The position numbers and the translations under genes were made by a program. The notes below the pieces were generated by a model. That model did not search any database and was not told where the DNA came from. It worked only from the letters and a program-made list of their open reading frames with translations. 64,000 bases of DNA from Alphaproteobacteria bacterium. GTDB lineage: Bacteria > Pseudomonadota > Alphaproteobacteria > Caulobacterales > Caulobacteraceae. The stretch spans positions 1 through 64,000 of the forward strand of contig JAHKAM010000060.1 of the NCBI GenBank assembly GCA_018826515.1, in the 5' to 3' direction. Shown in pieces: positions 56,829 to 59,869 of the stretch (position 1 is the stretch's first letter; every line of letters starts with the position of its first letter).

Positions 56829-57302
56829 GTGCACGACCGGATTCGTCAGGGGACACGGGCGCAGCATGAGCGCGTCGACGCCGCCTACGCCGGATACGAC
56901 CTGTCGACCCGCCCGGACTACATCCAATTTCTCCAGGCCCACCGCAAGGCGCTCTGGCGGCTGGAGCCGTCCTGGCGGCCGGTCGATCGCGCCGAGTTCA
57001 CGGACCTTGCGGCCAACCTTGACGCCGACCTCGACGAGCTTTCCGCCCGTCCCGCCAGACCCGAAGCCGTGGCTTGCCTCGACGGCCTCGCCGTGGCCTA
57101 TGTGATGCGGGGCTCAAGACTGGGGGGCGCGATCCTCAGGCGGCGCATCGGCCGGGGTCTGCCGGGCCGGTACATGCACCTTCCGATGACGCTTTCTTGG
57201 CCCGAGTTCACACGGCAACTCGATCAGGTCTCCCTTGACGACGCGATCATCGCCGATGCCCGCGCGGCGTTCGCCGCTTTCCTGCCGACGGATGACCGCT
57301 GA
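56829..57302 (+). CDS. bphO: Biliverdin-producing heme oxygenase
   Basis: 157 aa. HDRIRQGTRAQHERVDAAYA contains the proximal heme histidine region typical of bacterial heme oxygenases, and YVMRGSRLGGAILRRRIG matches the distal GSxxGG region. It opens heme to biliverdin, the chromophore of the phytochrome encoded next. I prefer GTG at 56829 because GGGGG lies 6 nt upstream and homology begins there; ATG at 56781 is an alternative. TGA overlaps the phytochrome ATG. The 229 bp before it hold an A/T-rich segment (AATAATAC near 56695) but no confident promoter. Confidence 0.87.
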   Translation: MHDRIRQGTRAQHERVDAAYAGYDLSTRPDYIQFLQAHRKALWRLEPSWRPVDRAEFTDLAANLDADLDELSARPARPEAVACLDGLAVAYVMRGSRLGGAILRRRIGRGLPGRYMHLPMTLSWPEFTRQLDQVSLDDAIIADARAAFAAFLPTDDR

Positions 57303-59869
57303 TGAAACGCCCCCAGGCCCCGGACCTGTCATCCTGCGACCGCGAGCCCATCACGCGCCTCGATCGAGTCCAGGCGTTCGGATTTCTGCTGGCCCTGACG
57401 AACGACTGGCTGGTCTCCCGCGCTTCGGAGAACCTGTCCGAGTTCCTCCCGCGCTCGGCCAGTGAGTCGATCGGCGAACCGATCGAACACCTCATCGACA
57501 AGGAAGCCCTGCACGAAATTCGCAACCGACTCGCCATCCTCCGCCCCGGCGGAAGCGAACGACTCTACGGCCTGCCGCTGGAAGCCGGCGGACCTCCCTT
57601 CGACATCGCGCTTCACTATGCGGATGACCTGCTTGTCATTGAAGGAGAACGCGCCAGCCAAGAGGATCGGACCGACGCCGCCTCCCTCGTGCGGACCCTG
57701 GTCGGCAGGCTGCAGTCGCAAACCAGCCTTGAGGCTTTTCACCGCGACGCGGCACGACAGATCCGCGCGATCACGGGCTTCGATCGGGTGATGGTCTACC
57801 GGTTCGACGAAGAAGGGGCCGGAGAGGTGATCGCCGAGTCTGTCGGCGCCGGCGTGGAGAGCTTCCTCGGACTGCACTATCCGGCTTCGGACATCCCCCC
57901 CCAGGCCCGGGCCCTTTATCTTCGCAACCCGTTCCGGATTATCGCCGATGTCGAGGGCGGGGTCGCAGCCCTGTTGCCGGTCGAGGCGCCGCCGCTCGAT
58001 CTGTCCCTGTCGATCGCGCGCGCCGTTTCGCCCGTTCACCTCGAATACCTCGTCAACATGGGGGTTTCGGCCTCGATGTCGATCTCCATCATCGTGGACG
58101 GACGCCTCTGGGGTCTGTTCGCCTGCCACCATCTCCAGCCCCGGCTTCCCAGCTTCACCCTGCGCAGTTGCGCCGAGCTGTTCGGCCAGATGTATGCGAT
58201 GGCGCTGGAGAACCGGCTGCGGAAGTCGGCGGAGGGCGCGGAACAGGACGCCCGCCGGTTGGCGGACCGGATGATCCTCGCGATCGCGGGAGACGAGCGC
58301 CGGCTGAGCGACACCGCCTGGATGAAGGATGCCATCAGCGAAGTCATTCCCAGTGACGGGGTCGCGGTCTATTCAGCCGGCGCCCTGGCGACTCATGGAC
58401 GGGTGCCGGTCTCGAGCCAGATCCTGGAACTGACCGAATATCTGAACGGCCAGTCCGCCAGTCAGGTTTTCTGCACCGACCGGATTGCGACCGTGCTGTC
58501 CGGCGGGGTCCGCGACGGGCGTGACGTCGGCGGCCTGCTGGCCATTCCGATCTCACGTATGCCCCGGGACTACCTGTTGTTGTTTCGGGGCGAGAAGCTG
58601 CGGCAGATCGCCTGGGGCGGCGATCCGGAAAAGGCGGTGATCGAGGACGAGACGGGCGTGCGGTTGTCGCCCCGCAAGAGTTTCGCCGCCTTCACCCAGT
58701 TGATCAGCGGCCGGTCGCTCCCCTTCACCGACAGCGAGAGGCGGATCGCCGAAGCGATCCGGATCGCCCTGATCGAGGTTGTGCTTCGCCTGTCGGAGGA
58801 AGCCGGCGCCGAGCGGTCCCGGGCGTTCGAGCGTCAGGAATTGCTGATCGCCGAGCTGAACCATCGGGTGCGCAACATCCTGGCCCTGATCCGCGGCCTC
58901 ATGAGCCAGACGTCATCTGAAGGCGTCAGTACGGCCGAGTACGTCGCCGCCCTCGGCGGACGGGTCCAGGCGCTCGCCCGCGCCCACGACCGGATCACGC
59001 TCCAGAACTGGGGCTCGGCGCCCGTCTCCGCCCTGTTCGAGGACGAGTTCGCCGCCTTCATGTCGGACCGGCCCGACTGTTTCACCATCGTGGGCCCGAC
59101 CGTGTTGCTGAGCCCCCTCGCCTTCTCAACCCTCGCGCTGGTCAGCCACGAGCTGGTGACCAACTCCATGAAATACGGGGCCCTTTCGAACGGGGGAACA
59201 GTGAACGTCGAACTCGATCGCGTCCCGGGCGGGCTGAATGTCCGCTGGCGTGAAAGCGGCGGGCCGCCGGTCGAGGCGCCGCTTCGGCGCGGTTTCGGGT
59301 CGGTGATCATCGAGCGCACCGTGCCCTTCGATCTCCAGGGACGGGCCGAGATTCGTTACCCGGTGACGGGTTTCGAAGCCGATTTCTTCGTGCCGGACGC
59401 CTGCCTGCAGGACCCTGCCGAATTCCAGCCCCGGACGGGGATCGTCCGGCAGCCTGCGCCGTCGGCCGGGCTGCCGGCCGTCGCTCCGGAACGCCCCCTC
59501 GAGGGGATCGACGTCCTGCTGTTGGAGGACAATATGATCGTCGCCCTCGAGGCCGAGGACGCCCTGCAGGCGATGGGCGCCCGCACGATCTGGACCGCCT
59601 CCACCCTGTCCCAGGCAGACGCCATCTGCGCGGCCGAAACGGTGCGCTTCGCCATGCTCGACATCAATATCGGCACGGGCACCAGCCTCTCGCTCGCCAA
59701 CAGCCTGCTGCGCCGCGGCATACCGCTGATCTTCGCCTCGGGCTACGGCGACACGGCCAATCTGGGTGCGCCGCACGACCATGCGCCGGTGCTGCGCAAA
59801 CCCTACAGCCGGGATCAACTCCGCGCGGCCGTCCTCGCCTGTATCGGCCCGTCCTTGCTCTCCACCTGA
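57302..59869 (+). CDS. bphP: Bacteriophytochrome with HWE histidine kinase and C-terminal receiver
   Basis: 855 aa red/far-red photoreceptor. PAS region with candidate biliverdin-binding Cys12 ([18 protein letters not shown]), whose surrounding motif departs from the usual EPIHIPGxIQPHG. GAF domain with PASDIP (194-199), PHY domain with the tongue motif PRKSF (457-461). The HWE-type kinase has phospho-His521 in [18 protein letters not shown], an N box [15 protein letters not shown] and VRWRESGG. A receiver with Asp787 (FAMLDINIG) ends the chain. Coupled to heme oxygenase, so it should be holo-protein in vivo. Confidence 0.92.

Follow-up and report, generated by a model that had tools for sequence, protein, structure and literature searches.

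A strap and tongue signature shared by one sub-clade of HWE-kinase bacteriophytochromes with a fused receiver

We analysed a stretch of 64,000 nucleotides from a Caulobacteraceae genome (GCA_018826515.1, contig JAHKAM010000060.1, positions 1 to 64,000; hereafter the window) that carries a heme oxygenase gene, bphO, followed by a bacteriophytochrome gene, bphP, whose product joins a PAS-GAF-PHY photosensory part to an HWE kinase and a C-terminal receiver. We found that the strap, the sequence that follows the expected biliverdin attachment residue Cys12, carries residues that bphP shares with a single sub-clade of such proteins, together with a Trp to Phe change in the tongue of the PHY domain. 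Our preferred reading, which we consider likely, is that bphP is a functional, covalently biliverdin-loaded and light-switched HWE hybrid kinase in which strap and tongue tune how the red-absorbing (Pr) and far-red-absorbing (Pfr) states are held. Within this reading we infer the covalent adduct, the response to light, the path taken by the phosphate and the role in tuning.

Strap and tongue signature

A first-pass annotation of this DNA had singled out the sequence after Cys12 as unusual, and in bphP it is. The contrast drawn with EPIHIPGxIQPHG was nevertheless overstated: Thr18, Arg19 and Asp21 are unusual, whereas the rest is ordinary for HWE-receiver phytochromes, in which LG frequently stands for IPG, and PFG or PIG for PHG. 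Among 56 other full-length HWE-receiver phytochromes, position 18 is His in 53 and Gln in 3, and position 21 is Gly in 52, Ser in 3 and Ala in 1. Strap positions 19, 20, 22, 25 and 26 are loose in the same set, with Arg19 occurring once. The strap recurs in 13 rows, which come from separate assemblies, and this rules out a one-off or a sequencing error. As a separate observation, two HWE-receiver phytochromes of the window's genus (L021 and L022, from genomes G039 and G018) have a different odd strap, CALEAIQFLGEVQSHG.

The final alignment holds 13 clade rows, from Brevundimonas, the Sphingomonas group and Agrobacterium/Allorhizobium plasmids, and 108 other HWE-receiver phytochromes. Duplicate loci, identical sequences and hits that scored below 440 bits or did not cover query residues 15-800 were excluded before counting, as was L264, which runs off its record and whose strap reads the same as that of the clade. 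Thr18, Asp21, Tyr298 and Phe464 are each found in 13/13 clade rows and in 0/108 others. Position 464, which the first-pass annotation had missed, lies three residues after PRxSF and is Trp in all 108 others. An initial screen against 56 others, with one exception allowed, gave nine clade-specific positions, and our claim rests on 18, 21, 298 and 464; Asn34 occurs once among 106 others (ten Asn in all, nine of them in the clade). Strap positions 22, 25 and 27 vary within the clade, the last being Ala in 7 of the 13 clade rows and Gly in the window, as in all 108 others.

With the trait columns removed, the clade falls on one side of a branch with a Shimodaira-Hasegawa-like approximate likelihood ratio of 100 (9 of 68 rows) or 99 (13 of 44 rows), in quick trees without bootstrap built on subsets of the rows (68 of 115 and 44 of 121), the second of which includes near copies (four plasmid rows). 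The strap marks one monophyletic sub-clade of HWE-receiver bacteriophytochromes. The comparison with Brevundimonas and Sphingomonas proteins proposed in the first-pass annotation places the strap in a sub-clade common to both, with the Agrobacterium/Allorhizobium plasmids in addition. The same annotation had held that a motif common in a known subfamily would refute its proposal; this applies in part, the motif being conserved in a sub-clade, although our literature searches surfaced no description of that sub-clade. These searches, which worked from listings and left out most subscription papers, found no description of the strap, and nothing for the strap letters or for Brevundimonas combined with bathy, the term for phytochromes with a Pfr-type resting state.

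Closer at hand, the HWE-receiver proteins of Brevundimonas (L010-L018), 48-50% identical to bphP, share its kinase and receiver residues and differ from it in His18 and Gly21, within an H-I/L-L/P-G-A-I-Q-P-I-G strap, and in Trp at 464. Oat phytochrome A, a plant phytochrome, differs from bphP in carrying its bilin on a GAF cysteine. It resembles bphP in having Phe (F558) at the second tryptophan-switch position of the tongue, at the same distance from PRxSF (PMC5928327, partial text), and the clade thus has at position 464 the residue of a plant phytochrome.

Thr18, Arg19, Asp21, Tyr298 and Phe464 are fixed between clade branches that are about 52-60% identical, and on these alignments our best reading is that chromophore strap and tongue changed together in the clade. 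Neutral drift, in which one lineage inherited the signature by descent with no functional consequence, is possible but somewhat less than even in our judgement; it fits the single origin on the tree and the variation of positions 19, 20, 22, 25 and 26 in other HWE-receiver phytochromes, but not the fixation of the five residues across such distant branches while positions 22, 25 and 27 vary.

Domains and conserved residues

The identities of bphO and bphP and their translational coupling, as first annotated, were confirmed: within 57300-57304 the bphO stop TGA (57300-57302) overlaps the bphP start ATG (57302-57304). The features are listed in Table 1.

Table 1. Positions of the gene pair and of its features in the window.
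Feature	Positions	Strand	Basis
bphO, heme oxygenase	56829..57302	+	GTG start; Pfam match below cut-off; member of iterated profile; 81% identity to L168
bphP, PAS-GAF-PHY-HWE kinase-receiver bacteriophytochrome, 855 residues	57302..59869	+	Domain searches; fold match for residues 1-505
Codon of Cys12, expected biliverdin attachment	57335..57337	+	Cys in 13/13 clade rows and 108/108 others
Strap after the attachment Cys, with clade signature Thr18-Arg19-Leu20-Asp21	57344..57382	+	Alignment
GAF domain with PASDIP Asp197, His246, Tyr249 and His276	57728..58213	+	Pfam; alignments
PHY domain and tongue (WGG ... PRKSFAAF)	58262..58792	+	Pfam; alignments
Phe464, second tryptophan-switch position of the tongue	58691..58693	+	Phe in 13/13 clade rows, Trp in 108/108 others
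HWE kinase with phosphoacceptor His521, Trp649 (W.E) and ATP-binding part	58853..59395	+	Pfam; NCBIfam below cut-off
C-terminal receiver with Asp787, FASGYG (FATGUY-like) and Lys833	59510..59836	+	NCBIfam PhyR receiver part, below cut-off

In Pfam searches bphP matches PAS_2 (residues 12-116), GAF (143-304) and PHY (321-497), all above their cut-offs, and HWE_HK (518-599) at 74.6 bits against a cut-off of 22.8. NCBIfam adds an HWE kinase match at 507-698, below cut-off, and a PhyR-like receiver match at 737-845 with the FASGYG motif, at 47-48 bits against a cut-off of 240; the 1040-bit cut-off of the BphP equivalog NF041576 is missed by bphP, at 269 bits. The annotated integrity of PASDIP, PRxSF, kinase and receiver holds, bphP reading Cys12, Asp197 of PASDIP, Arg458 of PRKSF, His521, Asp787 and Lys833. 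Tyr166, Tyr249, Trp438, Arg458, Trp649, Glu742 and Lys833 are kept in 8/8 clade rows and 56/56 others; so are Cys12, Asp197, His246, His276, His521 and Asp787, which in the larger alignment are also kept in 13/13 and 108/108. The second His of ACHH is Ala in 8 of 13 clade rows (including L039, L164, L165, L202 and L258), and the window keeps His277. By these residues bphP is apparently a functional, biliverdin-binding red/far-red hybrid kinase.

The receiver fused to the kinase, which had been flagged as a point of interest, is present but is common rather than unusual in this group: in the Caulobacteraceae sample, and in those of the Sphingomonas glacialis genus and family, matches often extend through the receiver. 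Operon and receiver fusion are ordinary for such light sensors. The window's own genome (G000) has one full-length match to bphP, and its other 8 matches cover the kinase or receiver part.

The ratio of nonsynonymous to synonymous substitution rates (dN/dS) against the congener L038 is 0.15 for bphP and 0.29 for bphO. bphP is under purifying selection, and its decay is ruled out by this value. A degenerating or non-photochromic phytochrome without proper chromophore attachment is accordingly very improbable as an account of bphP: the strap does depart from the textbook consensus at the attachment site, but Cys12 stands in all 13 clade rows, the reading frame is intact and under constraint, and bphO lies just upstream of bphP in both Brevundimonas members of the clade.

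Predicted fold and resting state

An AlphaFold2 model of bphP residues 1-505, computed from a 74-row alignment (73 of 114 related photosensory stretches were used), has a predicted local distance difference test score (pLDDT) of 86 and a predicted template modelling (TM) score of 0.83. Its 50 best matches in PDB are all phytochromes, with TM scores of 0.77-0.88 by query length. The best PDB sequence match of bphP is Agp2 (AtBphP2) of Agrobacterium fabrum (6g1y; expectation value (E) 6.7e-99 over residues 8-499), which like bphP has an HWE kinase and a C-terminal response regulator (PMC11021371). Agp2 is bathy, reads EPIHIPGYIQPHG and has Gln at PASDIP-3, whereas bphP has the TRLD strap, Leu191 and Phe464.

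Bathy traits described in PMC12362586 (partial text) are a tongue length of +5 and Arg at PRxSF-3, with Gln at PASDIP-3 and Gly at PRxSF-8 being frequent but not strict; the same text states that such residues are not exclusive to bathy forms. bphP has the +5 tongue (counted by hand over residues 433-469) and Arg454 at PRxSF-3, but at PASDIP-3 it has Leu191 instead of Gln, and at PRxSF-8 Asp449 instead of Gly. On balance we lean towards a Pr-type and not a bathy resting state for bphP.

Distribution among genomes and plasmids

A degenerate DNA pattern for EPITRLD was run, alongside a reversed control, on the genus group of Sphingomonas glacialis (G738, locus L039), represented by 295 genomes. 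It gave 10 matches in 9 of the 295 genomes and the reversed control gave 0 in every row, so the motif occurs beyond chance. Six of the ten matches lie inside bacteriophytochromes, in six genomes, and no relative of bphP was found at the other four loci (L154, L157, L160 and L162). Five of the six bacteriophytochrome loci were retrieved in full; the remaining one is L039. When these 295 genomes were searched at the protein level, 90 gave a match with E no worse than 1e-150; the six genomes with a clade member come out on top with 941.5-976.5 bits, followed by 873.5 bits. Besides the clade member, the genomes G738, G793 and G854 hold a canonical HWE-receiver phytochrome, and G752 and G871 a more distant phytochrome relative; G951 has no second match at E 1e-60.

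A sample of 298 genomes of the S. glacialis family yielded one further clade member (L202, in G1063). Of the 131 genomes from the window's genus, two carry a clade member as judged from score and from the straps read: that of the window and G107, the two being 92% identical. The window's genome probably belongs to Brevundimonas, since G107, assigned to its genus, carries a locus (L009) that agrees in strap, score and coordinates with L038 from a Brevundimonas metagenome bin. Among 299 genomes of the window's family and 385 of its class no row but the window exceeds 850 bits, straps having been read for the fetched loci only; the samples overlap.

A related photosensory part is present in 121 plasmid records, and the best seven of these, 53.7-53.9% identical, come from Agrobacterium vitis or Allorhizobium ampelinum. 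EPITRLD was found in all five plasmid loci read among these seven (L258 and L262-L265). Phages gave no match to the first 99 residues of bphP. One clade member, WP_012650515.1 of plasmid pAtS4c of A. ampelinum (A. vitis) S4, resembles bphP in the EPITRLD strap and in the Phe after PRKSFAA; it differs in its photosensory part (54% identical), in residing on a conjugative plasmid and in having an AraC regulator upstream instead of bphO. It is unlikely to be the characterised bathy AvBphP2, which is pETavi3496 with Asp793, the pAtS4c protein having Asp790. As an unverified lead, an abstract by Rottwinkel et al. from 2010 reportedly credits A. vitis S4 with two phytochromes, one bathy and the other showing novel spectral properties. 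If that second phytochrome were the pAtS4c protein, altered photochemistry would already be partly on record.

Neighbouring genes and history of the locus

bphO could begin at ATG 56781 instead of GTG 56829, and in comparison with the congener conservation is lower over the first 17 residues. The Pfam Heme_oxygenase (PF01126) score is 18.7 bits, below the gathering cut-off of 23, and a search of PDB sequences with bphO read from 56781 gave nothing up to E 1. It does join an iterated profile built from bphO and genes near other HWE-receiver bacteriophytochromes, and the congener L168 has a bphO at the same place, 81% identical. By this kinship we infer that bphO works like a heme oxygenase.

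Flanks of mostly 1.5 kb were searched with the heme oxygenase profile, and matches were counted by presence, whatever their strand or order. Of 57 non-clade HWE-receiver loci, 43 have such a match within the stretch fetched; with the loci added later, which include a few duplicates, the figure becomes 94 of 111. In the clade, apart from the two Brevundimonas members, L167 has a match on the opposite strand, L202 has a match too, and none is found in the fetched stretches of L039, L163-L166 and the five plasmid loci. An AraC-family regulator stands directly before bphP in L164 (4098-5051), L166 (4228-5172), L167 (4292-5260) and L202 (606-1466), and in the five plasmid loci too (L258, 3094-3954); those of L164 and pAtS4c are 64% identical. 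L163 has only a partial reading frame at the place of the regulator, and the upstream genes that L039 and L165 have in common are different ones.

In the window and in L168 the bphO-bphP pair sits between an ABC-F ATPase gene and mutL. bphP is in the flank of 0 of 18 other mutL loci of relatives, one of which is cut short. Two of these, L232 (G104; mutL 93% identical) and L233 (G044), have ABC-F followed by mutL without the pair, although the gap in L233 holds a run of N; the remaining 16 have no ABC-F match. Since two relatives in the genus have ABC-F next to mutL without it, the pair probably arrived at this site by gain or in exchange for other sequence; loss in the relatives is the less likely alternative. 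In place of the pair, L232 has a short reading frame (about 1204-1450) that may encode a DUF2164 protein. Clade members occur on plasmids labelled conjugative, and such plasmids offer a candidate route for the spread of the clade.

In a comparison of window positions 57302-59869 with L038 772-3336, synonymous divergence is 0.30-0.64 over the first 475 residues and 0.11-0.15 from residue 476, a drop that looks as if the 3' half of bphP had recombined. GGAAC-N15-18-CGTT, which we take to be the EcfG promoter consensus, occurs 0 times in the window against 1.6 expected by chance, so there is no direct link to the stress sigma factor; PhyR is encoded elsewhere in the genome.

Discussion

From family knowledge, bphO would make the biliverdin that becomes covalently attached at Cys12 of bphP. 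Light would then flip the tongue between sheet and helix and thereby change the activity of the HWE kinase, and phosphate would pass from His521 to Asp787 of the fused receiver, which would act as a sink or a relay and probably hand it on to receivers of partner proteins. The strap and the Trp to Phe change at the tongue switch most likely tune the stability of Pr or Pfr rather than abolish photochemistry.

The internal phosphotransfer or feedback through the receiver that the first-pass annotation had suggested is plausible by analogy with Agp2, the wild type of which shows no autophosphorylation until the receiver Asp is replaced (PMC8117939, partial text); in AtBphP2 this Asp is D783 (PMC11021371). 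The FATGUY motif has been described in receivers that act as phosphotransfer intermediates, its significance not being resolved (PMC9981736, partial text).

Several points weigh against a light-switched kinase tuned by strap and tongue. The strap is altered at positions, His18 and Gly21, that are otherwise nearly fixed, and the model falls below pLDDT 50 at residues 1-6 and again at 13-15, which directly follow Cys12, so that it resolves strap geometry only as a local strand at 18-24. The tongue length and Arg454 of bphP are also bathy features, which makes a Pr-type resting state tentative. When bathy tongues or N-terminal segments were swapped into a DrBphP-based construct, it was still prototypical (PMC12362586, partial text), and a tuning role of strap and tongue is weakened because these swaps left the resting state unchanged. 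Finally, laboratories differ on the autophosphorylation of Agp2 receiver mutants, one finding it independent of Pr and Pfr (PMC8117939, partial text) and another finding it lower in darkness (PMC11021371), so that whether light controls kinases of this kind is itself unsettled.

The strap and Phe464 could instead define a spectrally distinct class, in which bands are shifted, conversion is incomplete or dark reversion is unusual. We regard this as unlikely, even though the co-variation of strap positions 18 and 21 with tongue position 464 is strict (13/13 against 0/108) and cross-talk between N-terminal segment and tongue has been published (PMC6433076, partial text). The unverified lead on A. 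vitis S4 would also favour such a class. The pocket residues Tyr166, Asp197, His246, Tyr249 and His276 are unchanged, oat phytochrome A also has Phe at the switch (PMC5928327, partial text), and the tongue and N-terminal swaps kept the DrBphP-based construct prototypical (PMC12362586, partial text). More speculative still, and rather improbable in our view, is that phytochromes with TRLD and Phe464 make up a photochemical class not yet described, in which strap and switch co-evolved, with spectra or reversion neither prototypical nor bathy, and which spread across orders on conjugative plasmids.

The pairing of light sensor and AraC regulator in other clade members may point to the output. Taken together, a clade that alters the strap and the second tryptophan-switch residue at once would be a ready-made test of how Pr and Pfr stability is controlled, and its members may serve as scaffolds for red/far-red tools.

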